Source: Gammaproteobacteria bacterium (lineage in GTDB: Bacteria; Pseudomonadota; Gammaproteobacteria; JAJPIJ01). Taken from it: DNA of 61,373 nt. Numbering within the stretch: position 1 is the first letter of the stretch; each line of letters starts with the position of its first letter. This document shows positions 5,729-45,915 of this stretch, piece by piece. The stretch covers positions 1-61,373 of the forward strand of contig JAJVHZ010000009.1 in the NCBI GenBank assembly GCA_022072255.1. Reading direction: 5' to 3'. A program made the translations under genes and the position numbers. Under the pieces are notes generated by a model. It had not been told where the DNA came from, did no database searches, and saw nothing but the letters and a program-made list of their open reading frames with translations.

Positions 5729-5742
5729 CGTTGCTCCTCGGT

Positions 5743-5840
5743 GATTCGTCCACCAAGCCACACGGAGGAGACGCACGAAGGGGGGCACGAGGGGGAGAAA
5801 GACTCTTCGTGTTTCCTTCGTGTGGCCAGGTGGACGAATC
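5743..5840. repeat. 98-bp imperfect palindrome between dnaN and the upstream gene
   Basis: The arms GATTCGTCCACC (5743-5754) and GGTGGACGAATC (5829-5840) are perfect reverse complements. An inner pair, GCCACACG (5757-5764) and CGTGTGGC (5819-5826), continues the stem after a 2-2 mismatch. Smaller CACGAAG/CTTCGTG arms lie inside. The stem has about 20 paired positions. It could be a miniature palindromic repeat, a terminator for the 5854-6930 gene or an mRNA processing site before dnaN. It has no poly-T tail, so I favour a REP/MITE-like element. Confidence 0.7.
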
Positions 5841-8770: not shown

Positions 8771-8790
8771 TGGCTCACCTGATCGAATGG

Positions 8791-10002: not shown

Positions 10003-10108
10003 AGCAATCATCCTTTCGCCGGTTGCCTACAGCATTGATCTTTCCCCGAGTATCAGCAGAATCGGTGTCTAAAAGGGGCGTTATCAGAGAGCCACAATGA
10101 CCACGTAT

Positions 10109-19032: not shown

Positions 19033-22000
19033 CTATCTCCTTCTGACCGGGACGCCGAGGTCGCTAAAGACGGCCTGAGCGCCGCGCAGATGCTGCGATT
19101 GCTTGTAGAACTCGGCGATCTTGTCGGCGACGGCTTCGATCTTGGAATAAGCAGGGCGCGGCGCATCCGGCATCACCAGGCGAATGTCGAGCGCGGCCTT
19201 CCGGCCTTCGGTCGTGATCTTGAGCATGTTGTCCGCCTCCGGCGAAACGCGCCGGCTCTTGATCGCCTCGACGCGAGCCGCCAGATTTTTGACGAACCGT
19301 TTGAGTTCGGGACTGGCCGGGATCGTGATGACCTGCGGTGCGCCGCCAGCAATCCGCGGCCGCGGAAGGTTGAGCTGATCGGCGTTCTTCACATCCAGCA
19401 CCTGCCGCCAGAGCGCGGCCAGTTCGGGCAGGTTCGTGAATTTACAAAAGCGCGTGTTGACCCGAAACCCGGAGCAATCCGGCTTCATCTCCAATCCCTG
19501 GCTGGTCTCGGCGAAAAGCTGCGTCCAAGCGTCGAAGTGCGCGATGCCCATTTCTTCGAGCGTGTCGAGCTGCAGGAACTTCATCATCACGTAAACCTCG
19601 GCCAGCGTGTTGCTCACCGGCGTCGCCGTCGCGAAGACCACACGCCCGCCGCCGTCGAGCAGCGACCGCACTTTGATGAACGCGTCGAAGGCTCGCTGCG
19701 AATCGGCGGTGGGGAGTCCGGCGACGTTCCGCATCTTGGTCGGGCAGTAGAGGTTCTTATAAAGATGCGCTTCGTCCACGAATAACGAGTCAACGCCCAA
19801 CTCTTCCCAGGTGATCGTGTGTTTGGAGTCGCGCAGGATGGCGCTTTCGCAATCCTTCAACTTCACTTCGAGCTTCTTGATAGCTCGCTCGATCTCTTTG
19901 ATCGTCTTGCGGTGATCGCCCCGCTCGTCTTTCGGAATGCTTTCGAGGTATTCCCGTAGCACGTCAATCTCGCGCTGGATATATCGCGTGATGGTATCGG
20001 GCGCGACAGGGAGCAATTTGAAGGCCGTGTGGGGGACGATGATCAGGTCCCAATCGCCGGTTGAAATGCGTGAGAGCAGTTCGCCGCGCTGCGACGCGCT
20101 CAGTTCCTCTTTCGACGGCGCAAGCACGTTGATGTCCGGGTAGAGCCGCCGCGCCTCGGCCTCCCACTGCGCGGGCAGGTGATTCGGGACGACGGCCATC
20201 GTCTTGTGGCAGAGGCTCAACCGCTTCAACTCCATCGCCGCCGCGACCATCAGAAATGTCTTGCCTGCTCCAACACAGTGACCGAGGAGCGTCGCCTTGC
20301 TTTGCAAAATTCGAGCGATTCCATCGAGTTGGTGGGGCCGGAGCGTGATGCTCGAATTCATTCCGGACAGTTGCAGGTGGCTGCCGTCGTAGCGCCGCTC
20401 GCGCAGGCAGTTGTACCGCTCGTTGTAGATCGCGCAAAGTTCGCGCGCCCTCGATTCGCTGCTCCAGAGCCATTCAACGAACTTCATTTTGATCTCGGCC
20501 AGTTTCGCCTGCGCCGCGACCGTCTCGGTGTCGTTGAGGACGCGCCGCGTTCCCGCCGGCTCGTCAATCTCGTCGTAGATCATCGGTGTCCGAAGGTTGA
20601 GCCCGTCATCCAGAAGATCAATCGCATTCATTCGCGCCGTGCCCCAGGTCTGCGTCGCTTCGATCGAGTAGCGCGCCCAGTAATTGGAACCTTCGATCTT
20701 CCAGACGCCCAAGGATTCGACGTATTTCACCTGGCCGTCGAACTGCGGGACGATCTCGCGAATGAATTGCCGAACGACGTCTGGCGGAATCCAGCCCGAT
20801 CCGAGCCGAGCGGCGATCTCTTCGGTTCCGAGCGGCGAGGGCTGTACAGCGGTGAGCGCCTCGACGTTCTCTTGAAAGCGGGGATTGAGCGCCGCCGCGG
20901 CCTGCGCCTCTTTGAGCTTCTCGACCACGTTGCCCGACAAATACTCGTCGGCGGTCGCCCAACCGCCAGAAGTCGTTTCAAAGATCAGCCCGCGCAATGC
21001 GCCGGCGGCTTCTTCCCTCGTTTGCCTGGTCACCGCGGCGATGCGGTCGAGGTCAACGCGCCCCGTTTCATTCAGACAGAAGAACAGCGCGTCTTTGGGC
21101 GAGGAGATTTGAGCGAAGTCTTTGCGCGGGCGAATCGTCCGCGAATGAAAGATCGCCGCCCGCTTCCACGATCCTTTGCCCGACGGTTCTTCCAGCGCGC
21201 GCAAGAAAGGCACGAGGGGAGAGCGGCGGTCGAGGTCTTTCAGATTCTGTTTGGCGTTGACGGAGCCGTACCGCGCCGTGAAGCGAAGGTAGAGGCTGTT
21301 CAGCTCGCGCTGCGTACTGGCGAGTTTTTCATCCTCGGCGTCGAGAAGCTGAAGCTTGATGACTTGTTTGGCTGCCGAATAGATGTCGAGCAGGAGTGAG
21401 GCCCGCTGGCGCGAAATCCCGGAGAGGCGATCGAGATCAACGGCGCCGGCCTTCTCTTTCTCCTGTGCATCGTCTACCGGCGATGGCGCCGAAGTAGATT
21501 GATTCGCCGCCGTCGCCGCCATCGCCTGAGGGGGCAGTTGCGAGATCAGCGACTCCCTCAAAGCTGCGGCGAGGTCCCGCCCATCCGGTTTCAATGTGAA
21601 CTCGTGATCGCCGTACATCCCGCGCGAACAGCCCTGTACGCCCAGCATCAGCTCCGGGCGTTCGATGTAGAGCCGGTTGACCGGGACCCGGTATTCCTCG
21701 GCGTTCGGTAAGGCACCCGTCTCAATCCAGGCGAGCTTGTCGCGAGCGTCGCCCGGTGTTGTCTTCCGCCGCAAAATCAACACGTCGGTCACGACCTCGG
21801 TGCCCGCGTTCTTGCGGAAAGCGTTCTCGGGCAAACGTGCGGCGGCGAGCAATTCCGCGTGTTCGGCGATGTGCCGGCGCACGCGCGGATTCACTTTATC
21901 GAGCGTATAGCGCGACGTGATGAAGGCGATGATCCCGCCCGGCTTCACGAGCCGGAGGCTGCGCGCGAAGTAGTAGTCGTGGATGGCGGCTTTGAGATGG

Positions 22001-22647
22001 CGCTCTTTGATCCGCGGATCGTGAACGGCGTAGTTGCCGAAGGGCGCATTGCTCAGGGCCAGATCGAAGTAGTCGTTCGGCAGCACGGTCTCTTCAAAGC
22101 CCTGCTGGAAGACCTTCGCGTTCGGGTAGAGAAACGCGAGGATGCGCGCGGTGATCGAATCGAGTTCGACGGCCACGCGCTCGGCTTTGGCCGTGATCTC
22201 CGCCGGCATCGCGCCGAAGAAATGGCCGATGCCTGCCGCTGGTTCGAGCACGCCAAGATGGGGGAGAGCGCCGATGCCCAGATGATCCAACGCATCGTAG
22301 ATCGCGCGGATGATCGGGATCGCTGTGTAGTGAGCGTTGAGCGCGCTCGACGTTATCTGCTCCCGCTCTTCCTTGGTCAGAATTCCCGCCAGCGACGGGT
22401 GGATCGGCGCTTGCTGGTAAGCCCCATCGGGAAAGAGCCGGTCCAGCACTTCGCTGTCACCCCAGCCCGAATACCGTACGAGCGTCTGTTGCTCCGCCGG
22501 CGTCAAGCGCCCGGGTGCGCGAGATTCAGCTTCGAGGGATTTGAGCAGTATGATGGCGGCGACATTGAGATTGAAACGAGAAGCCGGGCCGCCGAGATCG
22601 GCAAGGTCTTCGCCCGGCGCGAACCGGAAGTCAGTAAAAGCGGTCAT
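19033..22647 (-). CDS. N6-adenine methylase / SNF2-type helicase, N-terminal part (1204 aa)
   Basis: I start at MTAFTDFRFAPGEDL (ATG 22645-22647). An N6-type methylase domain comes first: motif I LEPAAGIGHF near residue 132 and the catalytic motif as NAPF (SNAPFGNY) near 199, in place of NPPY/NPPF. After about 550 residues of helical linker comes the first helicase lobe: GHCVGAGKTF (Walker A, near 785), VVPNHLPAQWEAEA, and FVDEAHLYKN (DEAH, near 955). It ends at AVFSDLGVPVRRR, exactly where the second RecA lobe should begin. That lobe is encoded separately at 16965-18596. Such giant proteins are typical of plasmids and phages and are thought to protect or process incoming DNA. Confidence 0.9.
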   Translation of the reverse strand: MTAFTDFRFAPGEDLADLGGPASRFNLNVAAIILLKSLEAESRAPGRLTPAEQQTLVRYSGWGDSEVLDRLFPDGAYQQAPIHPSLAGILTKEEREQITSSALNAHYTAIPIIRAIYDALDHLGIGALPHLGVLEPAAGIGHFFGAMPAEITAKAERVAVELDSITARILAFLYPNAKVFQQGFEETVLPNDYFDLALSNAPFGNYAVHDPRIKERHLKAAIHDYYFARSLRLVKPGGIIAFITSRYTLDKVNPRVRRHIAEHAELLAAARLPENAFRKNAGTEVVTDVLILRRKTTPGDARDKLAWIETGALPNAEEYRVPVNRLYIERPELMLGVQGCSRGMYGDHEFTLKPDGRDLAAALRESLISQLPPQAMAATAANQSTSAPSPVDDAQEKEKAGAVDLDRLSGISRQRASLLLDIYSAAKQVIKLQLLDAEDEKLASTQRELNSLYLRFTARYGSVNAKQNLKDLDRRSPLVPFLRALEEPSGKGSWKRAAIFHSRTIRPRKDFAQISSPKDALFFCLNETGRVDLDRIAAVTRQTREEAAGALRGLIFETTSGGWATADEYLSGNVVEKLKEAQAAAALNPRFQENVEALTAVQPSPLGTEEIAARLGSGWIPPDVVRQFIREIVPQFDGQVKYVESLGVWKIEGSNYWARYSIEATQTWGTARMNAIDLLDDGLNLRTPMIYDEIDEPAGTRRVLNDTETVAAQAKLAEIKMKFVEWLWSSESRARELCAIYNERYNCLRERRYDGSHLQLSGMNSSITLRPHQLDGIARILQSKATLLGHCVGAGKTFLMVAAAMELKRLSLCHKTMAVVPNHLPAQWEAEARRLYPDINVLAPSKEELSASQRGELLSRISTGDWDLIIVPHTAFKLLPVAPDTITRYIQREIDVLREYLESIPKDERGDHRKTIKEIERAIKKLEVKLKDCESAILRDSKHTITWEELGVDSLFVDEAHLYKNLYCPTKMRNVAGLPTADSQRAFDAFIKVRSLLDGGGRVVFATATPVSNTLAEVYVMMKFLQLDTLEEMGIAHFDAWTQLFAETSQGLEMKPDCSGFRVNTRFCKFTNLPELAALWRQVLDVKNADQLNLPRPRIAGGAPQVITIPASPELKRFVKNLAARVEAIKSRRVSPEADNMLKITTEGRKAALDIRLVMPDAPRPAYSKIEAVADKIAEFYKQSQHLRGAQAVFSDLGVPVRRR

Positions 22648-22703
22648 CGGAAACTCTCCCCTGATGCAAGTTGGCAATCGGCAGCGGACGAAGCAGCCGC
22701 CGC

Positions 22704-23870
22704 TCACCTCACTTGCAAACCGCTTCTGTTTTTCGTCTTGATGGGAAACGCGCTGAGTTCGGCGAAGCGCGCTACTGCGATCTGCCGGAAGTGGGGGCTG
22801 AGGCGGTTGAGCCAGGATCGAACGCTAATGGATGTGATCGGAAAGTTGCGAACGGCAGCGTCGTCAATTCCTTTAACCCGGCCATCCCACAAAGCGATGC
22901 GCGTCGTGGCAAGCGTCTTTTCGCGCCGCATCCGTTTGGCGATCAACGCAGCCAGATGAAAGCAGACCGCTTCGTTTGAATAACTGTCCGCATCGAACGC
23001 AATCCATGTGCGCCGGCGGTGTGTGAGTTCGACGAGCGCGTCGTGATTGGCCGTCACGCAGGGCGTTGCGACGATGTGCAGGTCGGGACGAAGCGCGGAG
23101 AGGACATCGGCTTTGAGTACACCTTCGACAATTACAATCTGGGCATCGCGGGGGAGATCGGCGAAATGGAATTTGTAATGAAGAGGGCTGCCGGATCCAC
23201 ACCCGTGCGGCAGATCGGAAGAAGAGAGCCAGAGATAACGAACACCATTCTTTGCGGCCAGTGGCAGCCGCATCTGGCAGGCTTGAATGCGCCCCGCTTC
23301 GTCACGCACGGGAATGAGCAGTCTCGGCAGCAGATAATCTTTCGGCTTCCAGAGATGGATGCCCCCGTGGTCCTTCCAAAATCCTGGGACACCCAGCAGC
23401 GAATCGGCCCCTGGGAATTGGCCACTTGTCTCTTGCAGGAGCTGCCGCGCGAGGCGATCTCGTTCTCTCGAACCTGCCGGCAGCCCGCCGTAGTTGCCGA
23501 AATGACATTCGCTCAACCCGCGCGCACGAAGGCCTTTTTCGCCGCTGATGAGCAAGCCGCGGTAACGCTCAGCAGGGCTGAGTTCAATCAGCCTGCCGTA
23601 GACGAAGTCGCGGATTTCGATGGGGACGATCGGCGACTGCGGGAGATCAGCAACAGCAGAGATTTCGATCGCCCATTCTTCGCGCCGATCTTCGTGTATA
23701 AAGATCGCGCCGCCGTGTCGGTTGATCTTCCGCGCCCCCTCGCTGAGGCGCATACATATTGAAATGCGTTCGTCGTGTCTTACGAAGGAGCACCAATCGG
23801 GCTTTCCGCAAATCCGGCAAGGCCTACGCCGGTTTACGCGGCGGAAAATGTTTGAAGTTGCGGTCGGCAT
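22704..23870 (-). CDS. plasmid primase-like protein: zinc finger plus TOPRIM/DUF3854-type domain (388 aa)
   Basis: The N-terminal zinc motif uses C18, C21, C27 and C39 (CRICGKPDWC...SIC). A middle segment (PRLLIPVRDEAGRIQACQMRL) is typical of phage and plasmid primases. A TOPRIM-like core follows: VIVEGVLKADVLSAL (Glu motif) and WIAFDADSYSN (the DxD). The C-terminal part contains ALWDGRVKGIDDAAV, the GxDDA pattern of DUF3854/primase families. It probably makes RNA primers for the replicon. It sits 56 bases upstream of the methylase/helicase gene on the same strand and may form an operon with it. The start is ATG 23868-23870. Confidence 0.85.
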   Translation of the reverse strand: MPTATSNIFRRVNRRRPCRICGKPDWCSFVRHDERISICMRLSEGARKINRHGGAIFIHEDRREEWAIEISAVADLPQSPIVPIEIRDFVYGRLIELSPAERYRGLLISGEKGLRARGLSECHFGNYGGLPAGSRERDRLARQLLQETSGQFPGADSLLGVPGFWKDHGGIHLWKPKDYLLPRLLIPVRDEAGRIQACQMRLPLAAKNGVRYLWLSSSDLPHGCGSGSPLHYKFHFADLPRDAQIVIVEGVLKADVLSALRPDLHIVATPCVTANHDALVELTHRRRTWIAFDADSYSNEAVCFHLAALIAKRMRREKTLATTRIALWDGRVKGIDDAAVRNFPITSISVRSWLNRLSPHFRQIAVARFAELSAFPIKTKNRSGLQVR

Positions 23871-24050: not shown

Positions 24051-25247
24051 ATGACTCACGAGCGTTCAGCGTTTTCGGCTGCGGACTCTGCCTTGGGCTA
24101 TATCTACCAGTGTCGCTATGCGCTGCTTCTGGCTCTGCAACGCCTCCCGCTTGGTGAACCTTTTCAAGTTTCAATAGAGACACTGGATGATGTCGTGTTT
24201 GAGCGCCAGGGCGCAGCAACTGAACTCTTGCAAACGAAACACCATCTTGAGCGTCAGGCTAATTTGACCGATGCGAGCCCGGACCTGTGGAAAACGCTGC
24301 GGATCTGGATAGAGCAGTCGGCAAAGAGGGAGTTGCCGACTGAGACGCTGTTTTTTCTCATTACCACCGCCCCAATTCCTGAAGGTGCTGCGGCGGGTTA
24401 TCTAAAACTAGACTCTCGCAATGAGTTGACGGCGCTGCAGCGCCTTAAGCAGACAGCGCAAACATCTCAAAGTAAGGAGAATCGTGCCGGATACGACGCC
24501 TTCCTCGGTCATCCGGAGAATCAATTACTGGCTATCCTCAGGTCTATTGTCATTATCGGCTCAGTTTCTAATGTCACGGCAATCGAAAATGATCTGCGCA
24601 ACGCCGTCTTCTACGCGGTGAGATCACAATTCTTAGAACCCTTTCTATCGAGGCTAGAGGGCTGGTGGCTTCGCAGAGCGATACAACATCTGTCAGCTGA
24701 TTCCGTCAAACCGATCCTTAGTGAGGAACTGAACGCGCAGATCAACGACTTGCGAGAGCAGTTCAAGCTGGATGCTCTGCCTATAGACGAGGATATTCTC
24801 GACATCGAATGGGATGAAGCCGCGGCAGAAAGCGCCGTCTTCGTTCAGCAACTACATCTGATCAGCATAGGCCGCCCGCGCATCCGTAGCGCGATCCGCG
24901 ATTACTACCGCGCATATGAGCAGCGTTCTCGTTGGTTGCGGGACAAGTTGCTCTACATCGGGGACATCTCTCGCTACGAAAAGCGCCTCGTCGAAGAGTG
25001 GGAACTACAGTTCGAACGTTTCAGGGATCAACTGGGCGATGCGGCCGCTGAAGACGCAAAGAAAAGGGCGGCTCATGATGTTTACGCCTGGGTAGAAACC
25101 TACGTAAATCCCATTCGCCCCAACGTGACTCAGGAGTACATCTGTCGCGGCTCTTACCACATACTTGCGGATGACCTGAAAGTCGGGTGGCACTGTGATT
25201 TCAAAGAGCGGCTGGCGCACCTACTTGAGGGGAAGGAGGTGGCTTAA
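24051..25247 (+). CDS. ABC-3C system effector: DUF4297/Cap4-like nuclease with ABC-3C C-terminal domain (398 aa)
   Basis: The N-terminus SALGYIYQCRYALLLALQR, then ETLDDVVFE and ELLQTKHHL (residues about 13-70), carries the D...ExxQxK motif of the DUF4297 (Cap4-type) dsDNA nuclease fold. The C-terminal region (EYICRGSYHILADDLKVGWHCDFKERLAHL) matches the C-terminal domain of ABC three-component systems. The next gene starts one base after its stop, and the third overlaps the second by four bases, so this is a tight operon. The nuclease is probably kept silent until the SMC-like ATPase senses foreign DNA; this follows from the family and is not shown here. Confidence 0.85.
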   Translation: MTHERSAFSAADSALGYIYQCRYALLLALQRLPLGEPFQVSIETLDDVVFERQGAATELLQTKHHLERQANLTDASPDLWKTLRIWIEQSAKRELPTETLFFLITTAPIPEGAAAGYLKLDSRNELTALQRLKQTAQTSQSKENRAGYDAFLGHPENQLLAILRSIVIIGSVSNVTAIENDLRNAVFYAVRSQFLEPFLSRLEGWWLRRAIQHLSADSVKPILSEELNAQINDLREQFKLDALPIDEDILDIEWDEAAAESAVFVQQLHLISIGRPRIRSAIRDYYRAYEQRSRWLRDKLLYIGDISRYEKRLVEEWELQFERFRDQLGDAAAEDAKKRAAHDVYAWVETYVNPIRPNVTQEYICRGSYHILADDLKVGWHCDFKERLAHLLEGKEVA

Positions 25248-25739
25248 GTGAGTGTCTGGGTGAATCGCCCGCGCGAAGTGGCGAACTTATTCAACCCGAG
25301 CTTTTGCTCTCTACTCCTCTGGGCGGCGGCCAGCGAATATCAGCAGGTGAAGAACACAGGGATGCCAATCGTCTTGTCTTTCATAGTTCCTCCCCTCACC
25401 TTACACAAATCAACAAGAGAGGCGCTGCCGAATGCCATAACGACCTCGCTGACTGTTTGGATAAGCGAACACGCTGACCTCTTACCCGGCTTTGCAGATC
25501 GCACTCGTGATCTACTTCCCTTTGCCCGCGAAGCGCTGTTGTTCGGATCCATACAAGACATTTTCCAAGTCGAGGGAGAGCTTCTCACGCCTACGCGGTT
25601 ACGCGGATTCAACAACTACGCGGAAGAGACGACAGAAGAAGTACGAGAGTGTTTGCGTAAGGCCAGGTTTATTGGCCGCTGGTTCGCCAGGTCAGGCTCT
25701 CCCCCAACGATCTTGGCTTTATTTGGGTTACAACCATGA
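25248..25739 (+). CDS. ABC-3C system middle component (163 aa)
   Basis: The start is GTG 25248, immediately after the stop of the effector gene. The sequence NRPREVANLFNPSFCSLLLWAAASEYQ...MPIVLSFIVPPLTLHKSTREALP...GLLFGS-like segments fit the small middle component (MC3-like) of ABC three-component systems. These precede a DUF3732 ATPase. No catalytic motif is visible; the protein probably links nuclease and ATPase. Its stop overlaps the ATPase start by four bases (ATGA). Confidence 0.8.
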   Translation: MSVWVNRPREVANLFNPSFCSLLLWAAASEYQQVKNTGMPIVLSFIVPPLTLHKSTREALPNAITTSLTVWISEHADLLPGFADRTRDLLPFAREALLFGSIQDIFQVEGELLTPTRLRGFNNYAEETTEEVRECLRKARFIGRWFARSGSPPTILALFGLQP

Positions 25740-27673
25740 GCTTTCAAATTTTGGACATCGTGCTCTATGGCGATGGAGACAGAAGAAGGGTGCTTTCGCT
25801 TCGCCCAGGAGAGGTCAACGTAATCGTCGGCGATTCGAAGACCGGCAAATCAGCGTTGATTGACATCGTTGATTACTGTCTTGGCAGGGAGTCTTACAAC
25901 GTCCCTCAAGGAATAATCCGCCAGACCGTCAGATGGTACGGACTTCGGTTGCAACTAGCCGATGGAGAAGCATTCATCGCCCGGCGCGCGCCCAGCGCCC
26001 GGCAGTCTTACACTCAAGACATTTACTATGAGATCGGATCGCAGGTGAGTATCCCAGATGCAGCATCATTCCACTCCATGACCAATATAGAAGGGCTTGA
26101 GTGGATGCTATCGAAGGCGGCAGGCATACGAGACAACTTGCACGAACCTCCACCCGGACAGACCAGACAGCCTCTTGAAGCCACTATCAGGCACGCCCTG
26201 TTCTTTGTTTTCCAACAACAAGATGAGCTTCTAAGCAGAAAGCACTTATTCCATCGGCAAAGCGAGCAGTTCATTCCGCAGGCCATCAAAGATGTTCTTC
26301 CTTACTTTTTAGGGGCCGTCGAAGACGATTTCATCAGCAAAAAAGAGCAGCTTCGCCGCCTGCGGAACCAACTGAAGGAGCGAGAGCGAAAACTTGCGGA
26401 GATGAACGCCATCCGGGGCGACGGAGTCAGCAAGGCCTCTTCATTGCTGGCGGAAGCTAGAGACCTGGGTCTCGTTGAAGAAACACAAGGAACTTTAATT
26501 TGGGAGGAGATCGTCAATAAACTGCGCACTGTGGCTCAAAGGCCCATCCAGGACGTTCCAGAAGCAGAGATAGGCGGTGAGGCTATCGAGCAATTAAGCG
26601 CAACCCGGGAACGCCTTCTAGCTGCGCTACAAGAAGCGAAGAGCGAACTTGAGGCGGTCAGATCGCTTATTGCTGATGAACGTGGGTTCGCGCAGGAAGC
26701 CAGTGAACAGGCAGCTCGCCTAACCAGCATCGGCCTTTTCAGCGGGGCTCAGGACAACCCGCTCTGCCCTTTGTGTCAAAACCCGGTTCAGGATCAAGTT
26801 CCAACAATAGCGGAGATGCAATCATCGCTGAGCAGAGTGACGACCCAACTAGATCGAGTTACCAAATCTTCACCAAAGTTGGAGAGGGTGGCCAGCGACA
26901 TCGAGGCGCGCATCGCAGACATCAAGCTTCAGCTCGCAAAGAACAAGGAAGAGTCCGACGCAATTCGTCGATCAAGCGAGCGGCTAATGTCGCTTCGGGA
27001 TCAAAATACCCGCACGGCGCTTGTCATCGGGCGCATCAGTCTCTATCTCGAAAGCCTGCCCGAGCTTGAAGACACGAGTGCGCTGCAAACCGAAATCAGG
27101 CGGTTGCGTGAGCAAGTAGACGCTCTCGAGGTGGAGCTGAGTAATGAGCGCACCCAAGAACGGATTGACTCTATGCTCTCAAACATTGGCAGGCAGATGA
27201 GTGAATGGGCTCAGCGGCTGCAGCTTGAGCACGCAGAGTATCCTTTGAGAATTGATCTGCGAAGACTAAACATCGTTGCCGATACCGACAATGGGCCGCT
27301 CCCAATGGATACAATGGGAAGTGGAGAGAACTGGGTAGGCTATCATCTTGTTGCGCATCTCGCCCTTCATCAATGGTTCACCCGAAAGCAGCGGCCCGTC
27401 CCGCGCTTCCTCTTTCTCGACCAGCCGTCAGAAGCGTACTTCCCTTCCGATGACTATGGCGAGAATTTGATTGAGCTTCCCCCGAGCAAAGATAGAGATT
27501 CAGTGACGGCGATGTTCCGGCTGATCTTCGATGTAGTAGAAGCCCTCTCCCCGCATTTCCAAATCGTTTTAACCGAGCACGCCAACTTACGAGAGGCGTG
27601 GTTTCGCAACGCTGTCCGCGAGACTTGGCGTGGTGGAAACGCTCTTATTCCTATTGAATGGAAGATTGGCTAA
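25736..27673 (+). CDS. SMC/Rad50-like ATPase of an ABC-3C system (DUF3732 type, 645 aa)
   Basis: Walker A is GDSKTGKS (residues 32-39). Two coiled-coil arms (about 200-330 and 355-495) are joined by a zinc-hook CPLC (C344, C347). Then come the ABC signature-like SGENWVGYH (529-537), Walker B LFLDQPSE (559-566) and an H-loop LTEHA (612-616). The usual Glu after the Walker B Asp is replaced by Gln (DQPS), a feature I recall for DUF3732 proteins. Such ATPases sense or clamp DNA and control a partner nuclease, here the first gene of the operon. Codon use is like the two upstream genes and more AT-rich than the backbone. Confidence 0.9.
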   Translation: MSFQILDIVLYGDGDRRRVLSLRPGEVNVIVGDSKTGKSALIDIVDYCLGRESYNVPQGIIRQTVRWYGLRLQLADGEAFIARRAPSARQSYTQDIYYEIGSQVSIPDAASFHSMTNIEGLEWMLSKAAGIRDNLHEPPPGQTRQPLEATIRHALFFVFQQQDELLSRKHLFHRQSEQFIPQAIKDVLPYFLGAVEDDFISKKEQLRRLRNQLKERERKLAEMNAIRGDGVSKASSLLAEARDLGLVEETQGTLIWEEIVNKLRTVAQRPIQDVPEAEIGGEAIEQLSATRERLLAALQEAKSELEAVRSLIADERGFAQEASEQAARLTSIGLFSGAQDNPLCPLCQNPVQDQVPTIAEMQSSLSRVTTQLDRVTKSSPKLERVASDIEARIADIKLQLAKNKEESDAIRRSSERLMSLRDQNTRTALVIGRISLYLESLPELEDTSALQTEIRRLREQVDALEVELSNERTQERIDSMLSNIGRQMSEWAQRLQLEHAEYPLRIDLRRLNIVADTDNGPLPMDTMGSGENWVGYHLVAHLALHQWFTRKQRPVPRFLFLDQPSEAYFPSDDYGENLIELPPSKDRDSVTAMFRLIFDVVEALSPHFQIVLTEHANLREAWFRNAVRETWRGGNALIPIEWKIG

Positions 27674-28628: not shown

Positions 28629-28850
28629 TCAATTCTTCTTTTTTGCTCTCTTGACGCCCTGCTTTTGGGCGGGTCGCTTGCCACCTTTCTTTCGCACATA
28701 CCCCTCAATCTCAGCGCGTGCGATGACGTAACCGCCGTCGTAATGAATTGGCGTTAAGTCGCCGTTGTTGATCATGGCGATGATCCGAGGAGGCTTCACG
28801 CCATGGATCTCCGCCGCCCGCTTCACAGAGACGAAATTCTTGAGGTTCAT
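28629..28850 (-). CDS. excisionase/MerR-like HTH protein (73 aa)
   Basis: The start is MNLKNFVSVKRAAEIHG, because AGAGGGG lies about ten bases upstream; an ATG nine bases earlier touches that site. The HTH_17-type fold is FVSVKRAAEIHGVKPPRIIAMINNGDLTPIHYDGGYVIARAEIEGYV, and the tail is strongly basic (KKGGKRPAQKQGVKRAKKK). Such proteins act as excisionases or small repressors. A perfect 27-bp palindrome lies about 70 bases upstream (28917-28943), which suggests autoregulation. Confidence 0.75.
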   Translation of the reverse strand: MNLKNFVSVKRAAEIHGVKPPRIIAMINNGDLTPIHYDGGYVIARAEIEGYVRKKGGKRPAQKQGVKRAKKKN

Positions 28851-29202
28851 TGCCCGCATTCCCCTCTTTATTCAGTTTTCCTGACCAAACCACTTGAACA
28901 ATTTGCACCGATGTGAAATGCTATTAACATAGTTAATAGCATTAAAGCAAGCGGCGGGCATTTTGTCGGCCGCTTTTCGTTTACTGGCTGATCATGCTGC
29001 GCCGAAAGTGCCCCGAGCGCTGTGAGCAGAAGGGCGGCTGCAATGGCCGTCTCTTAAATTCATTGACGCGAGAGTAGATCGCTCGCGGTCCGCGCCTCTC
29101 CCCCGAGATGGCGCGGTCGTTCATACAAACGTTGCCCGAAAATACGGCCCGATAAAGGCGATCAAACCCCGTCCGCTCGCCTTCGACGTCCAGAGGTGCA
29201 CC
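28851..29202. other. 352-base intergenic region
   Basis: It holds the palindrome at 28917-28943 and a hairpin AAGCGGC (28949-28955) / GCCGCTT (28969-28975) followed by TTTCGTTT. It also holds the divergent promoters for the HTH gene (minus) and the RecA-like/polymerase operon (plus). A 27-codon frame at 28994 with four cysteines lacks a ribosome-binding site, and I do not call it. AGAGG lies at the correct distance before the ATG at 29203. Confidence 0.55.
28917..28943. promoter_or_regulatory. 27-bp perfect palindromic operator
   Basis: The left arm AATGCTATTAAC and right arm GTTAATAGCATT are exact reverse complements around ATA. It lies upstream of the HTH gene at 28629-28850, so that protein is the likely ligand. 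It could equally be a binding site for a recombinase directionality factor. Confidence 0.75.
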
Positions 29203-29820
29203 ATGCGCACGTTCCCACTGAGCACCGCGCCGCGCGCGGTGAATGCCCTGCTATCCCCTGCCCGAAGAGTCACCCTCTACGGCGCACGCGCATTTTCCCT
29301 CTCTCTGCATTACGCCGCAGAGACAGCGTGTGAAAAGAAACCCGTCGTCTTTATCTGCGGAGATAATCGCTTTAACCCATATACGGTCGCGCGCCTGGCT
29401 AGGCAACTCCATCACCGCCAGGAGGACGCGCTCAACCGAATTCTCGTAGCCCGCGCTTTCACCGGCTTCCAGTTCAACGAACTGATCCAGCGGCTGAACC
29501 CGGACGAAGTGGCCGGGCCGGTCATCATTTCGGGCATCTGCTCGACGTTCATGGATGAAGACCTGTCGCACAACGACGCGGCCAGGCTCTTTTACCGGGC
29601 GTTGTGGCGGCTGGCCGAGCTCGCCGGCAGGGGCATGTCGTTCTTGCTCTGTGAGAGCCAGGAGATCGCGGGCATGCGGTGCGCCCATTTTCTGAAGGAC
29701 CTTTACAAAGCCTCGAATTTCATCTTTCGCCTCGACGGGGAGCATTCGTACACGCTGGAGATGGGGAATTACCGCCCGCTCTATCAGCTCGCCTCGATGG
29801 AAAGACAACTACTGGCGTAA
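29203..29820 (+). CDS. RecA/Rad51-like protein lacking a P-loop (205 aa)
   Basis: The fold signature is RecA/RadA-like: VVFICGDNRFNPYTVARLARQ, then NRILVARAFTGFQFNELIQRL, then a Walker B-like strand GPVIISGICSTFMDEDLSHNDA and SFLLCES. Where Walker A should be, the protein reads LYGARAFSLSLHYAA, with no GKT/GKS, so ATP binding in the usual way is unlikely. The protein is also short, with no DNA-binding loops. The family B polymerase lies in the same operon, 4 bases plus one small gene downstream. By analogy with ImuA, it may be a recombinase-like accessory of a specialised polymerase. That analogy is my inference. Confidence 0.7.
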   Translation: MRTFPLSTAPRAVNALLSPARRVTLYGARAFSLSLHYAAETACEKKPVVFICGDNRFNPYTVARLARQLHHRQEDALNRILVARAFTGFQFNELIQRLNPDEVAGPVIISGICSTFMDEDLSHNDAARLFYRALWRLAELAGRGMSFLLCESQEIAGMRCAHFLKDLYKASNFIFRLDGEHSYTLEMGNYRPLYQLASMERQLLA

Positions 29821-29824
29821 CCCT

Positions 29825-30124
29825 ATGGGCCGAACTGTAACACCATTCAGCATTGTGCTTTCACAGGAGGAAGGCCGGCTCAAAAAGTTCAGAAGGGCGC
29901 TGCGGGCCGAGGACCGCCGGCACTTCGATGAGCTTTTCGAGCACGCGCGGCGGAACATCCAGGCCGCCGTACAAGCCGCCGCGCCCGAACCGATGGAGTC
30001 TATTTTTCTCCTGATGCTGATCGAGATGCAGAAAGAGATTCAGGAACTGAAGGCTCGCCTCGGCGAGGCGGAACCCAAAGACCGATTCGCGTTGGTTGCC
30101 CCGAATGAAGAAACGCAAGATTGA
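29825..30124 (+). CDS. small helical protein of the polymerase operon (99 aa)
   Basis: It starts four bases after the RecA-like gene's stop and overlaps the polymerase start by about 20 bases, so it belongs to the same operon. It is mostly helical (KKFRRALRAEDRRHFDELFEHARRNIQAAVQAA, then FLLMLIEMQKEIQELKARLGEAE). The ribosome-binding site is weak. No family is recognised. A role as a bridging or processivity peptide for the polymerase is possible, but no motif shows it. Confidence 0.6.
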   Translation: MGRTVTPFSIVLSQEEGRLKKFRRALRAEDRRHFDELFEHARRNIQAAVQAAAPEPMESIFLLMLIEMQKEIQELKARLGEAEPKDRFALVAPNEETQD

Positions 30125-32291
30125 GGGATGGCTGTTCGACGTCGATGAGCTTGGTCCGGTGGTCGCGCTGTGGGTTTACGACACAGGCGGAAAGCTTCAC
30201 CGGCTCACGCACGAGTTCAGCCCCGTGGTTTACGCCGGCGGAGAGAGGGAGGAGCTTAAGCGGCTTTCTACCGATCTGTGGCGCCGGGGCTTCATCACAG
30301 GCGGCCGATGGGAAGCGCGTCGAGAGTTCTGGACCGGCGAAGAGGTTGAAGTCCTCCAACTCAACGTCTCCGATTCATCGAACCTTCCGCGGCTGCGCGA
30401 GGTTGCGGGCACTCTCGACCAGACGATCTCTTTCTACAACCTCGACATTCCGACCGCGCAGTATTACCTCTACCTGACCGGCCTCTTTCCCACATGCCGC
30501 CTTGAATGCGTAGCCGATGAATGGGGAAACGTCATCGAGATCGCCGCGACGAATTCAGCCTACGACCTGCACCACGAATTGCCGGCGCTCTCCGTCCTCA
30601 GGATGCGCGGCGAAAAAATGCAGCCCTTATCCGCGCGGAGCCGCATCCTTGTCGAGTGGAACAACGCGACGAGCGTTTTTCATCTTGCCGGCGGCGGCGG
30701 CGTCATCAATGCATTCAATGAACTGATCGAGCGCGCCGACCCGGACCTGATTTTGAGCGAGCGAGGCGATACGCTTCTCTTCCCTGCCCTGCTCTCTCTC
30801 GCTGGACGCGAGCGCGTGGATCTTCACCTTGACCGTGACCGCGTCAAGACACAACGGAAGATCGAGACTGAAGGGCGCAGCTACATGAGCTACGGCAAGG
30901 TGATTTACAAAGGGCCGAATTACCCACTCTTCGGCCGCTGGCACATTGACCGCAAAAATTCCTTCGCTTTCCACGAGACGCAGCTTGAAGGGTTGTTGGA
31001 GATGGCTCGGCTCGCCAAAACGCCCGTGCAACGGGCTGCACGCCGATCACCTGGAACTGCAATGACAAGTCTCGAAATCGAGCGGGCCGTGAAAGACGGC
31101 ATCCTCGTGCCGTGGCGCAAGTCAGAACCGGAAAGATACAAGACAGCGCTCCAGCTTCTGACCGTGGACAAGGGAGGCCTCACCTTTCAGCCGAAGGTCG
31201 GCGCGTTCGAGGGCGTGGCCGAGATCGATTATGCGAGCATGTACCCAAGCCTGATGGTCACACGCAACATCTCGCCGGAAACGGTGCTCTGCTCCTGTTG
31301 CGATAACCAGGTTGTCCCGGAAGCGGGATACAACATCTGCACGAAGCGGCGCGGCCTGATCCCGCTCACCCTCGCCCCGCTGGTCGAGCGCCGGCGGCAA
31401 CTGAAAGAGTTGATGCGGGGAGCCGGAGACGAACGGGCGCGCGCGGTTTACGACGCCAGGCGCACGGCGATCAAGTGGATGCTCGTAAGTTGTTTCGGGT
31501 ACATGGGCTTCCGAAACGCGAAATTCGGCCGCATCGAAGCGCACGAAGCGGTCACGGCTTTCGGTAGGGAAACGCTACTCTCCGCCAAAGACATCGCCGA
31601 GGAGCGCGGCTTTCGGATGCTCCACGCCTTGACCGACAGCCTGTGGATTTCAAAGGCAGGAACGACGGAGGAGGAACTTCGGGCGCTCTGCGGCGCGATC
31701 ACCGCGGAGACGCAGGTCGAGATGTCTCTTGAGGGCGTCTACAGGTGGATCGTCTTCCTGTCTTCGAAAGTGAAAGAAGGCCGTCCCGTGCCGAACCGAT
31801 ACTTCGGCGTCTTCAGCGACGGCGCGCTGAAGACGCGCGGCCTCGCGCACCGCCGGCGGGACACGCCGCTTTACGTCAAGGAGGTTCAGGAAGAGATGCT
31901 CGCGATTTTAGCTGAGGCCCGGACGCTCGACGATCTCCGCGAGAGGCAGAGAGCGGCGCTCGAACTTCTGGAGCTGCGGATCGCAGAGCTTGAACGCGGA
32001 GAGGTGGATATCAAGCGGCTCATCGTCGAGCAGGTCTTGAGCCGCGACATCGAAGACTACGCCGTCGAGACGCGTACGGCGCTCGCCGCCCGCAAGCTTC
32101 GTGACGCCGGCATCCCTGTTCATCCAGGCGAGAGCGTCGGCTACGTGATCGCCGACGCGAAGGCAAAGGACAAAGCCCGGCGCGTCACGATCGGCGGCGA
32201 TGGTGAAGAATTGCGATATGACGTGGAGGAATACGTGAAGCGGCTGCGGGACGCGGGCAAAGAGGTGTCTCCGTTTACAGGAAGGCAGTAA
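30105..32291 (+). CDS. family B DNA polymerase without recognisable proofreading motifs (728 aa)
   Basis: I use ATG 30105 (MKKRKIEGWLFDV); the longer frame begins with TTG. Motif A is EIDYASMYPS (Asp375), motif B is KWMLVSCFGYMG (Lys457) and motif C is HALTDSLW (Asp511). In motif C the usual YxDTDS has lost its first Asp but keeps the second, which binds metal in this family. A Cys cluster (CSCC...NIC) lies between motifs A and B. In the N-terminal half the exonuclease positions do not show the DxE or later Asp motifs (ILVEWNNA, PDLILSERGD), so proofreading is probably absent. This suggests a translesion or accessory polymerase. Confidence 0.85.
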   Translation: MKKRKIEGWLFDVDELGPVVALWVYDTGGKLHRLTHEFSPVVYAGGEREELKRLSTDLWRRGFITGGRWEARREFWTGEEVEVLQLNVSDSSNLPRLREVAGTLDQTISFYNLDIPTAQYYLYLTGLFPTCRLECVADEWGNVIEIAATNSAYDLHHELPALSVLRMRGEKMQPLSARSRILVEWNNATSVFHLAGGGGVINAFNELIERADPDLILSERGDTLLFPALLSLAGRERVDLHLDRDRVKTQRKIETEGRSYMSYGKVIYKGPNYPLFGRWHIDRKNSFAFHETQLEGLLEMARLAKTPVQRAARRSPGTAMTSLEIERAVKDGILVPWRKSEPERYKTALQLLTVDKGGLTFQPKVGAFEGVAEIDYASMYPSLMVTRNISPETVLCSCCDNQVVPEAGYNICTKRRGLIPLTLAPLVERRRQLKELMRGAGDERARAVYDARRTAIKWMLVSCFGYMGFRNAKFGRIEAHEAVTAFGRETLLSAKDIAEERGFRMLHALTDSLWISKAGTTEEELRALCGAITAETQVEMSLEGVYRWIVFLSSKVKEGRPVPNRYFGVFSDGALKTRGLAHRRRDTPLYVKEVQEEMLAILAEARTLDDLRERQRAALELLELRIAELERGEVDIKRLIVEQVLSRDIEDYAVETRTALAARKLRDAGIPVHPGESVGYVIADAKAKDKARRVTIGGDGEELRYDVEEYVKRLRDAGKEVSPFTGRQ

Positions 32292-41213: not shown

Positions 41214-42101
41214 ATGGGCAAGCACTGGGACGACTGTGACGATGAAACCCGCGCCTTCGTCATGAAGGCCGTCGATATCCTGCGCTCGCGCCTCGGAACG
41301 GATCTAAGAAGCGTTTTGCTGCATGGGTCTCTTGCGCACGGATGCTATTTCATTCCCAAAAGCGACGTTGATATCCTTGCTGTCACCGCGGCGCCCCTTG
41401 CCGAATCAACAGCAAAGGATCTCCTGCAGGCGATCAATCATCTCAACGACCAGCGTCCGTATACCGGTTCGCTCGAACTGAGCCTGGTATTGGAAGAGAG
41501 CGCCCGGACGCCGGATCACCCGATTCCCTATGAACTCCATTTCGGGGAGGAGTATGCCGACCGCATCCGAAGCGGCCTGTACGATTACACGGCGAGGCGC
41601 GGGCGCGATCCGGACCTGGCCGCCCATTTCACCGTAGCGCGAAAGCTCGGAATCTGTCTCTACGGAACTGCCGCGCCCCAAATTCTCGGCCCGGCGCCAT
41701 GGCTACACTTCCTGGATGCGATTGATGCCGGCGATCTCGACTGGATATTGACGAACGAGAACATCCTGACCTCGCCCTTCTATGGCGTGCTCAATGCGTG
41801 CCGCGTCGTAATGACGCGAACCTGGGGGGAAGGAACGGTGGTGAGCAAAGAAGACGGCGCGCTCTGGGCCCTGGAAAACTTCCCCGCGGAACATCGAGGG
41901 ATCATCCAGCAGGCGCTCGACGTCTATCGTGCGCCGACGCCTGTGACACCCGAAAATCGCCGCACCGGCGGGATCGAATGGGACAGGGAAAAACTGCTCG
42001 CCTTTCGGGATTTTATCGCGGCGACGGGCGATCCCGACCGCTGCGGCTTCGCCTTCGCCCGTCGCTCGCTTACAATCGGAATGCCCCGTTGCAACCGCTG
42101 A
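41214..42101 (+). CDS. AadA-like nucleotidyltransferase (295 aa)
   Basis: The nucleotidyltransferase core LLHGSLAHGCYFIPKSDVDILAV (residues about 37-60) has the GS-x(n)-DxD metal site. The rest (ELSLVLEE, PYELHFG, then a helical C-terminus with VLNACRVVMTRTWGEGTVVSKEDGALWALE) matches the aminoglycoside adenylyltransferase AadA/DUF4111 group. It might confer streptomycin or spectinomycin resistance, but distant members exist without that activity. GGAGAGGC precedes the ATG. The dinB gene follows 27 bases downstream on the same strand. Confidence 0.8.
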   Translation: MGKHWDDCDDETRAFVMKAVDILRSRLGTDLRSVLLHGSLAHGCYFIPKSDVDILAVTAAPLAESTAKDLLQAINHLNDQRPYTGSLELSLVLEESARTPDHPIPYELHFGEEYADRIRSGLYDYTARRGRDPDLAAHFTVARKLGICLYGTAAPQILGPAPWLHFLDAIDAGDLDWILTNENILTSPFYGVLNACRVVMTRTWGEGTVVSKEDGALWALENFPAEHRGIIQQALDVYRAPTPVTPENRRTGGIEWDREKLLAFRDFIAATGDPDRCGFAFARRSLTIGMPRCNR

Positions 42102-42128
42102 TTCGCAGTCATGCCGGGAGCCTTCTTC

Positions 42129-43244
42129 ATGATGGAAACAGAGATTGAACCCGAACATCACTCCGAGACGCCGCTTCGCAAGATCGTGCATGTGGATATG
42201 GATGCCTTCTACGCCTCCGTCGAGCAGCGCGACGACGCGAGCTTGCGCGGCAAGCCGGTCGTGGTCGCCTGGCGTGGAAATCGGTCCGTCGTATGCGCCG
42301 CCTCCTATGAAGCGCGACGCTTCGGTGTTCGCTCCGCCATGCCCGCGATGCGAGCCGAGCGCCTCTGCCCCGATGCCATCTTTATCCCTCCCGACTTCAC
42401 GCGGTACAAAGCCGTTTCGCGCGCCGTGCGAGAGATATTTTCGCGGCACACAGGCCTGGTCGAGCCGCTTTCACTCGATGAAGCCTATCTCGATGTAACC
42501 GAGAACAAATTGGGTCTGCCCACCGCCACGCGCGTCGCGCAAATGATACGGCGACAGATTCGAGAAGAGTTGAACCTGACGGCCTCCGCCGGCGTCGCGC
42601 CGAACAAGTTCCTCGCAAAGATCGCTTCGGACTGGCGCAAACCGGACGGACTGTTTGTGATTCAGCCGGGCGAGGTGAGCGCCTTCCTCCTGCCGCTCCC
42701 CGTAGGCCGCATTCCCGGCGTAGGGAAAGCGACGGAAGCCCGATTGAAAGGATTAGGCATTGCGACAGTCGGAGACCTGCGCGATCTCGGTATCGAGGCG
42801 CTTGAAACCAAGTTCGGCCGCTATGGCCGTCGTCTCTATGAACTGGCGAACGGGATTGACCACAGTCCCGTCGTATCCGACCGGCCGAGGAAGTCGCTCT
42901 CCGCCGAAGACACCCTCGAACGCGACCTGCCGCTTTCCGAGACCGAAGGGTTGATTCGACGTTTGGCAGAGAAGGTTTGGGCGGCGTCGAGGAAAGACGC
43001 ACGCGTAGCGCGAACCGTCGTGCTGAAATTGAAGACGAGCGATTTCCAGATCTTGACGCGCAGCCTTACGCCCTCGATCCCTCCCGGCGACTGCGAGGAG
43101 CTCACGGCGATCGCGCTGTTCTTGCGAAGCCGCGTCGCAGCCGCCCCTGATCAGCGATTCCGCCTGGTGGGTGTGGGCTTGAGGAACTTCGCCGGCGCCG
43201 AGTCTCTACAGCCATCGCTTTTTGAAGAGTTTTCGAACGGATGA
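42129..43244 (+). CDS. dinB: Y-family DNA polymerase IV (371 aa)
   Basis: The start MMETEIEPEHH at 42129 is favoured by GGGAG eight bases upstream; a longer frame begins at 42111. The catalytic sites are VHVDMDAFYASVEQRD (first Asp) and SLDEAYLDVT (Asp-Glu). The little-finger domain has the usual sequence LSAEDTLERDLPL. The C-terminus QPSLFEEF is a beta-clamp-binding motif, so it can use the clamp encoded at 4631-5728. It performs error-prone translesion synthesis. Its position next to the AadA-like gene may be chance or a shared operon. Confidence 0.95.
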   Translation: MMETEIEPEHHSETPLRKIVHVDMDAFYASVEQRDDASLRGKPVVVAWRGNRSVVCAASYEARRFGVRSAMPAMRAERLCPDAIFIPPDFTRYKAVSRAVREIFSRHTGLVEPLSLDEAYLDVTENKLGLPTATRVAQMIRRQIREELNLTASAGVAPNKFLAKIASDWRKPDGLFVIQPGEVSAFLLPLPVGRIPGVGKATEARLKGLGIATVGDLRDLGIEALETKFGRYGRRLYELANGIDHSPVVSDRPRKSLSAEDTLERDLPLSETEGLIRRLAEKVWAASRKDARVARTVVLKLKTSDFQILTRSLTPSIPPGDCEELTAIALFLRSRVAAAPDQRFRLVGVGLRNFAGAESLQPSLFEEFSNG

Positions 43245-44134: not shown

Positions 44135-45025
44135 CTATCTGCGATCAATCAAGCTGGGCAAGTCAGGGAAAAAAGCTTGCAGGAGTCGCTTCAACTCGGC
44201 CAGCACATCGTCACAGGCCGGCAGTTCGGGCACGAATGGTCTCAGGTTGCCCTCCCAGTTCCGGCGCGCTTCCGCCTCCAGCTCGGCGGTGAAGAAATCG
44301 TCGAGAGAGCCGTAAGACACGCCGCGATGAGCGCTCTTGCGTTTGAGCAGATCGCCCAATTCGACGCCCTCAATCAACGGTCCGAAGTCGCGCAGGATTC
44401 GCCAGAGGTCATAGTAGTCGCGCGCCCGCGGGCGGTTCCATCCGCGCGCCAGCAGCTTCTGTTGTGTCTGAAGCAGCGCGCGCATTTTCTCGGCGACGAT
44501 CTCGGTGAGCGGGTAGCAGCGCAAACTCACCGCCATCGCTTCTTCATAACCGTGAATGAGATTGCGCCGCGCCGCTTCGAGCAGGACCGGCTCGTCGTGC
44601 GTGATCTCAACCTTGATCCGGCATAGCGGACTTGGATGCCATGGGAACTTCACCCTCGCGATGAAGGCGTCCTGGCCGCCAGGATGTGGGGCGCGCTCCG
44701 TATAGCGTTCCGTTTCAATCCGAAAGGGACCGTGAGTGGAGAGTAGCCGCGTTGCCTCCTGTACGGCCGCGCGGATCGCCGCTTCCATCGCTTGCTCGCG
44801 CGGAGCATTCACCGCCGAGAAATCCAGGTCTTCGGAGAAACGGTAGTCGCCGAAGTAGAGTTTTTTGAGCGCCGTTCCGCCTTTGAAGACCAAGGTCTCG
44901 CTCAACTCGGGGTTTGCGGCGATCCCGGCGAGCAGGTAACTGAGCGCGTAGTCCTTCTCGACGACCATCTGTGAAACCTGCATCTGGAGGGCCGCCTTGC
45001 GCAGTCTCGATCGCAGCGGCTTCAT
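44135..45025 (-). CDS. AbiEii/AbiGii-family nucleotidyltransferase toxin (296 aa)
   Basis: The core ETLVFKGGTALKKLYFGDYRFSEDLDFS (residues about 43-70) is the AbiEii nucleotidyltransferase motif (GGT...DLDF). The helical part EIVAEKMRALLQTQQKLLARGWNRPRARDYYDLW follows, typical of the family. AbiEii transfers nucleotides to cellular targets such as tRNA acceptor stems and stops growth in infected cells. It overlaps the antitoxin gene upstream by four bases, so the two are translationally coupled. All expected core residues are present. Confidence 0.9.
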   Translation of the reverse strand: MKPLRSRLRKAALQMQVSQMVVEKDYALSYLLAGIAANPELSETLVFKGGTALKKLYFGDYRFSEDLDFSAVNAPREQAMEAAIRAAVQEATRLLSTHGPFRIETERYTERAPHPGGQDAFIARVKFPWHPSPLCRIKVEITHDEPVLLEAARRNLIHGYEEAMAVSLRCYPLTEIVAEKMRALLQTQQKLLARGWNRPRARDYYDLWRILRDFGPLIEGVELGDLLKRKSAHRGVSYGSLDDFFTAELEAEARRNWEGNLRPFVPELPACDDVLAELKRLLQAFFPDLPSLIDRR

Positions 45026-45915
45026 CGCCTGCCTCCCGCGCCGAGGTTCTCCTGCACCATCCAGCGCTCATCGTACTTCCCCTCACGCGGGCGCGTCGGA
45101 TCGAGCACTCTCACCCCGTCCATCGGAAGCTCGGCGAGCGGCGCCGTCACACGGCGAGGCGCGCCTGTCCGGTCGAGCGCCCACCCCAAACGCTTGGCGA
45201 CCGACGCCTTGCCGTAACGCAGCGCGTATCGCACGAACTTCTCGAGGTCGAGATCGCCGGCATGCTCTTCGAGAATGCCCAGCGCCTCAGCGAGGCCCCC
45301 GAAAAGGCGCGGCGCGGCGAAGCCGTCGAGCAAGCTACGCTCCTTGTCATAGATCGGGACACGGAAATGCTCATCCACCCAAACCTCTTCAATCCCGAAG
45401 AAGCGATCCGAGGCCACCGTGTAATACTCATACTCCACTCCGTTGGTCTCCCAGATATGCCTTCCGGCTTCTCTCCCGGCCGGGCGCTGCTCCGTTTGTC
45501 GAGCCTGGGAATGGGCGCGCATGCTCGGAGTGACGACCTTCTTCGGCGTGCTCGCCGTCACCCGGCGCGGAACCTGCTCGGTCAACCCGTGATGATGGAG
45601 CGCCGACCAGTGGCTGATGGCCGAAGGAGAGACCAGATTCGTGGCGACCGCGAAGGGATGGACCTCGACCTCGCCGGGTAGCCTCCCCATCCCGGCGTAG
45701 AGTCCCCGGCGCAACCGCAGCAGCCAACCGCCCGTCGCCAGCTTCGAGAGCAACTGCGGGAGATAGGTCTCGGGGATAGCGAGATCGGCGGCGGCGGCCT
45801 TCGCGTCCTCGGTCGAGAAGATGAAAGATCCCCGTTCAGCCAGCTCGCGTAGGAGCTTGACGCCGAGAGTCTCGCCATATCCTTCTGCCTGGGCTATTTG
45901 AGAGTGGTTCGTCAT
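45022..45915 (-). CDS. AbiEi-family antitoxin with wHTH (297 aa)
   Basis: The N-terminal winged HTH (STEDAKAAAADLAIPETYLPQLLSKLATGGWLLRLRRGLYAG) is followed by the AbiEi antitoxin region (HPFAVATNLVSPSAISHWSALHHHGLTEQVPRRVTAST). The C-terminal part (YDKERSLLDGFAAPRLFGGLAEALGIL) is also typical. The protein represses its operon through inverted repeats. The AT-rich spacer upstream (45916-46002) has a TATTATG-like -10 on the minus strand. Together with the AbiEii toxin this forms a complete type IV-style abortive-infection pair. Confidence 0.9.
   Translation of the reverse strand: MTNHSQIAQAEGYGETLGVKLLRELAERGSFIFSTEDAKAAAADLAIPETYLPQLLSKLATGGWLLRLRRGLYAGMGRLPGEVEVHPFAVATNLVSPSAISHWSALHHHGLTEQVPRRVTASTPKKVVTPSMRAHSQARQTEQRPAGREAGRHIWETNGVEYEYYTVASDRFFGIEEVWVDEHFRVPIYDKERSLLDGFAAPRLFGGLAEALGILEEHAGDLDLEKFVRYALRYGKASVAKRLGWALDRTGAPRRVTAPLAELPMDGVRVLDPTRPREGKYDERWMVQENLGAGGRR

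Follow-up and report, generated by a model that had tools for sequence, protein, structure and literature searches.

Organization and identity of the polymerase operon

A family B DNA polymerase with an altered active site, encoded in one operon with a RecA-like protein and a small protein, raises the question of whether such a locus is a plasmid-borne mutagenesis or lesion-bypass cassette and whether it is new. The window analysed here comprises positions 1-61,373 of contig JAJVHZ010000009.1, from the bin of a Gammaproteobacteria bacterium, and its features are listed in Table 1. The three genes are co-directional and stand in the order iRadA–PPB2–PolB2, which is the layout of bacterial mutasome operons. 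A gap of 4 nt separates the iRadA stop from the PPB2 start. Translation of PolB2 could begin at TTG 30096 or ATG 30105, the ATG being likelier, and the overlap with PPB2 is 20 nt counted from the ATG and 29 nt from the TTG. The three genes thus overlap or nearly touch, as originally predicted. We consider them, with a probability of about 0.87, to be a bacterial iRadA-PPB2-PolB2 operon, a PolB2 mutasome for which extension from lesions and mismatches is predicted.

Table 1. Position and annotation of the features found in the window
Feature	Position	Strand	Remarks
Complete beta sliding clamp gene (dnaN)	4631-5788	-	sole full-length dnaN found in the bin
MoxR-type AAA ATPase and adjoining protein with weak VWA match	7151-10011	-	
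DarB-like antirestriction/helicase-methylase protein	19033-22707	-	1224 aa; PHROG 10089
Lamassu-type operon LmuA-LmuC-LmuB	24051-27673	+	PADLOC; Pfam ABC-3C CTD7 and DUF3732
HTH_17/excisionase-like protein, divergent	28629-28859	-	76 aa; Pfam HTH_17 1.4e-5, slightly under cut-off; PHROG 66 (excisionase and regulator) 1.1e-6
Conserved upstream block, putative regulatory region	28860-29202		337/343 bases identical to second copy (98.3%)
Perfect 27-bp inverted repeat, candidate operator	28917-28943		AATGCTATTAAC-ATA-GTTAATAGCATT; 12-bp arms, 3-bp centre
iRadA	29203-29820	+	205 aa; RadA/Rad51 fold; P-loop, Walker B and N-terminal helical domain absent
PPB2 (formerly arCOG07300)	29825-30124	+	99-aa helical protein; invariant N-terminal MGRT arm
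PolB2	30096-32291 (ORF)	+	B-family DNA polymerase; likely start ATG 30105; exonuclease residues lost
AadA-like nucleotidyltransferase	41214-42101	+	well under NCBIfam cut-offs for resistance enzymes
DinB/Pol IV-type Y-family polymerase	42111-43244	+	10 kb from PolB2 operon
AbiEi/AbiEii-type toxin-antitoxin pair	44135-45915	-	downstream of cassette

PolB2 was assigned to family B by Pfam (DNA_pol_B, 1.2e-38) and matched an NCBIfam type-B polymerase model at 2e-122, a score under the curated cut-off of that model. The predicted structure (pLDDT 89) matched whole archaeal PolB structures in Foldseek at 3.7e-45. The active sites were aligned to those of solved archaeal polymerases, including P. 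abyssi Pol. Motif A, DYASMYPS, is present with its Asp (D374) intact, in line with the original prediction. Motif C reads HALTD versus YxDTD, so the first catalytic Asp is gone, as had been noticed, and the second is retained; among the 84 aligned PolB2 relatives, the His was found in 83 and the final Asp in all 84. The textbook motif B of family B is KxxxNSxYG. In the window it reads KWMLVSCFG, and the claim that motif B is kept held for the Lys and failed for the Asn, which is replaced by Val here and in 82/84 relatives. The changes in motifs B and C are therefore family traits, being common to nearly all aligned relatives, while the motif A Asp, the second motif C Asp and the motif B Lys are strictly conserved among the same 84 sequences. 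Alignments differed as to Exo I, pairing its acidic residues (DxE) with either ExA or IxA, and Leu takes the place of the Exo II Asp, which bears out the claim of unrecognisable exonuclease motifs. Judging from these replaced residues, with Exo III not alignable, the 3'-5' exonuclease of PolB2 is inactivated.

The polymerase tree proposed with the original prediction was run as a quick maximum-likelihood analysis. Both copies from the bin (see below) grouped with bacterial PolB2 of Spirochaetota and WOR-3 with support of 95-100, on long branches, and the closest relatives recovered from outside the bin were 32-43% identical. E. coli Pol II (PolB, DinA type) was considered and rejected. This type has an active exonuclease and YxDTD and is encoded by a single gene; its motif C and exonuclease residues differ from those of the window protein, and the NCBIfam Pol II models scored far under cut-off.

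Searches of Pfam and NCBIfam with the single iRadA sequence gave only weak RadA/Rad51 matches. A family profile of 16 iRadA sequences found RadA at 1.5e-13, and the AlphaFold model (pLDDT 87) matched DMC1/RadA/Rad51 in Foldseek at about 1.5e-9, so that the relation to RadA is established by profile and predicted structure despite the weak single-sequence matches. Walker A (GKT) was absent from iRadA in the family alignment, confirming that this RecA-like protein has no P-loop. Since the protein begins at the ATPase core, the N-terminal helical domain is absent too. For PPB2, Pfam and NCBIfam returned nothing useful; it matched PHROG 26583 at 1.7e-15 and begins with MGRT, which is invariant among 14 aligned members. 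It fits the PPB2 type, a helical protein of about 90 aa with MGRT at the N-terminus. Matches of the PPB2 HMM adjoin PolB2 in 76/84 loci.

Conservation of the cassette and its second copy

A scan of named genomes with a single protein as query found nothing, and an alignment query was needed; it gave 80 PolB2 loci, with two more from viral contigs. Partners beside PolB2 were detected with iterated HMMs. Both partners were present in 69/84 loci. Upstream DNA exceeded 1.2 kb in 74 loci, of which 66 had both partners and 64 were scored as having the order iRadA-PPB2-PolB2, long read-through ORFs obscuring the order in two further ones. The neighbourhood search suggested originally thus recovered a conserved three-gene order, and neither of the observations named as contrary to the prediction (no co-occurrence of the genes; a clear P-loop and exonuclease motifs) was made. 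Hosts include Spirochaetota, Acidobacteriota, Chloroflexota, Ignavibacteriota, WOR-3, Nitrososphaerota, Thermoplasmatota and haloarchaea. PolB2 is present on many haloarchaeal plasmids and a Leptospira phage, and the whole triplet occurs on Leptospira phage and haloarchaeal plasmid DNA as well; most PolB2 relatives from the alignment scan sit on contigs without signs of an element. A scan of 200 genomes of the same phylum, in which up to five candidates were scored per genome and distant copies may be missed, returned only the genome of origin, so the cassette is rare in the phylum of the host. A search of plasmid DNA with 25 kb found no close relative.

A second copy of the cassette was found in the bin on contig C8, with a DNA identity of about 94% over the cassette region. 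The window contig and C8 share several collinear, interrupted blocks. Between the two copies, dN/dS was 0.09 for PolB2, 0.13 for PPB2 and 0.25 for iRadA, with dS of 0.12-0.24, and all three proteins are therefore under purifying selection and not decaying. Because the gene order is kept in distant genomes and dN/dS is this low, the three-gene cassette is more than a chance arrangement.

Context of the element

At 57%, the GC content of the window departs from the figure of about 68% for most contigs sampled in the bin. By tetranucleotide profile, the window is similar to contigs C8 and C20. Genes for ParA and ParB are present. The clamp gene lies 25 kb from the cassette and was found on the window contig only, not beside the second copy; the chromosomal dnaN appears to be missing from the assembly. 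From ParA, ParB, the clamp of its own and the deviating composition, the cassette is likely to be plasmid-borne, as had been proposed, or carried by a phage-plasmid, the DarB-like protein suggesting phage-plasmid character. No contig-end overlap indicating circularity was found in the window, which also had no Rfam match, and a search of the bin for a 16S gene returned none. Given the difference in GC content, the contig may be wrongly binned, and the host assignment is uncertain.

The Lamassu operon stands directly upstream of the cassette region and is absent from the matching part of C8. The DinB gene is located where the match to C8 is interrupted. The AadA-like gene is probably not a true resistance gene.

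Function of the operon and alternative readings

The published model is a heteropentamer in which a PPB2 trimer joins PolB2 and a single iRadA; the contact between PolB2 and iRadA is like that in a Rad51 filament, and one of the MGRT arms extends to the cleft (PMC11791011). By homology with archaeal PolB2 and with such models, the operon of the window probably serves lesion bypass or translesion synthesis, and we infer by analogy that its products form the complex and that its polymerase is active. PolB2 would bind iRadA as RadA subunits bind each other in the filament, the PPB2 trimer would put one MGRT arm into the PolB2/iRadA cleft near DNA, and the proofreading-dead PolB2 would extend mismatched or lesion-terminated primers, which would raise survival of damage at the cost of mutations. 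The PolB2 of Sulfolobus, which carries the HxxxD change too, polymerises robustly and extends mismatches and lesions efficiently (PMC8764526), and in S. islandicus targeted mutagenesis in vivo stems from PolB2 alone (PMC7390963). By these data the role in mutagenesis or lesion bypass that had been proposed for the cassette is probably correct. No report of an assay of any bacterial PolB2 was found in the literature.

The Sulfolobus data also bear on another reading, in which the polymerase complex is catalytically dead and, making no DNA, acts as a regulator of replication or of fork handling, of the element for instance. This view was held in 2014, with linkage to orc in archaea (PMC4104785), and it would fit the absence of two residues, the first Asp of motif C and the Asn of motif B. 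We consider it improbable, because a polymerase with the same HxxxD is robust and mutagenic in vivo and because the remaining catalytic residues of motifs A, B and C are strictly retained. Replication of the plasmid or phage-plasmid by PolB2, as by the PolB of other mobile elements, is less probable still. The sliding clamp and the ParA/ParB genes of the element and the occurrence of the cassette on plasmids and a phage are in its favour, but PolB2 has lost proofreading, polB2 of pNRC200 is dispensable (PMC1906834), most relatives sit on contigs without evidence of an element, and the clamp gene is remote from one copy of the cassette and missing beside the other.

The neighbouring Lamassu-type and AbiE genes could place the cassette in an anti-phage defence island. 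However, PADLOC assigned no defence family to iRadA and matched PolB2 to nothing but a homing-endonuclease model, in its polymerase part, no Lamassu genes accompany the second copy of the cassette, and relatives occur without a Lamassu/AbiE context. Membership in such an island is hardly credible, and a defence function of the cassette was rejected on the PADLOC results and the second copy. The translesion reading could be widened to the whole element, which would then be a complete transferable kit with the PolB2 mutasome as extender, DinB as inserter and a clamp of its own, placing mutation of element and host under the control of the element and not of the host SOS response; we regard this wider proposal as speculative and rather unlikely.

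Comparison with known systems

Makarova (2014, PMC4104785) described the association of iRadA, PPB2 and PolB2, including its occurrence in bacteria and the missing ATPase residues of the RadA relative. Bacterial operons were surveyed and modelled as the 'PolB2 mutasome' in 2025 (Timinskas, PMC11791011), bacterial PolB2 is listed in a 2026 survey (PMC12926913), and PolB2 on the haloarchaeal replicons pNRC200 (Halobacterium) and pNG600 was noted in 2007 (PMC1906834). The cassette is thus not new, contrary to the original prediction, and the operon itself is not a discovery. Novelty is confined to details: a related contig carries a second copy, 94% identical and under purifying selection, and the element has its own clamp, DinB, ParAB and Lamassu genes.

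With the bacterial PolB2 mutasome (PMC11791011) the window shares the gene order, the MGRT arm of PPB2, the lost first Asp of motif C, the dead exonuclease and an iRadA without ATPase site or N-terminal domain. It differs in that no adjoining lexA, SRAP or DUF72 gene and no evident beta-clamp motif were seen, and in having two copies in one bin, plasmid-like contigs and divergent sequence. Sulfolobus Dpo2/PolB2 (PMC7390963, PMC8764526) has in common the HxxxD motif C and the lost proofreading, and the same partner genes according to PMC11791011, but is archaeal, chromosomal, damage-inducible and experimentally characterised. The polB cassette of the Leptospira phage LE1 type (KF114878) also lies on a mobile element, with iRadA, PPB2 (MGRTVTPYS) and a 38% identical PolB2 in the same order; unlike the window, it has a clamp-like motif, QLLLPF, at the PolB2 C-terminus, followed by a SRAP-like gene.

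The proposed pairing of a RecA-like accessory with a specialised family B polymerase for mutagenesis or lesion bypass agrees with the published view (PMC4104785, PMC11791011). The likeness in logic to ImuA-ImuB-DnaE2 that had been pointed out holds. Both this system and the Pol V (UmuC-UmuD'-RecA) mutasome combine a specialised polymerase with RecA-family and small accessory proteins, but their polymerases are of the C and Y families, and the window has no ImuB-like or UmuD-like subunits. Membership in ImuA-ImuB-DnaE2 was rejected, the polymerase being of family B and the flanking neighbours not of family Y.

Bacterial PolB2 mutasomes are so far predicted, and the question they pose is the mobile spread of mutagenic repair, as with MucAB and RumAB, which are spread by mobile elements. 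A plasmid-like copy without host SOS signals, together with a near-identical second copy, would be reasonably suited to asking whether an archaeal-type complex functions in bacteria.

Control of the cassette

The block upstream of iRadA is more conserved between the two copies than the synonymous sites of the three genes, suggesting either constraint on regulation or a local conversion tract. The inverted repeat within it has the divergent HTH gene on one side and the operon on the other. It occurs twice in the 4.27-Mb bin, once per cassette copy, and allowing three mismatches brought up no further site there; a genome-wide regulatory box was ruled out, as the repeat was found only with the cassette. 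The divergent HTH gene is retained in both copies, and its product is a possible local regulator and putative cassette member. A tiny Cys-containing ORF, MLRRKCPERCEQKGGCNGRLLNSLTRE, was also observed in the conserved block (28994-29077, + strand); it is possibly a leader peptide or due to chance.

No lexA match was found on the window contig or the contig of the second copy, and host-type LexA boxes in the window were at chance level. Damage induction of the cassette is therefore unsupported. Pattern search of the iRadA and PolB2 C-termini gave no beta-clamp motif, although weak motifs could escape it. In the iRadA-PPB2-PolB2 family, linkage to lexA is frequent and a fraction of members have the clamp motif, but both are optional traits and neither is universal. 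Elsewhere in the bin, on contig C11 (80495-81489), a host-type lexA was observed. A CTGTATGCATGTACAG box precedes it, and a RecA-like frame, possibly ImuA, follows it directly. Given these two genes, a conventional mutagenesis cassette may be present in the bin as well.
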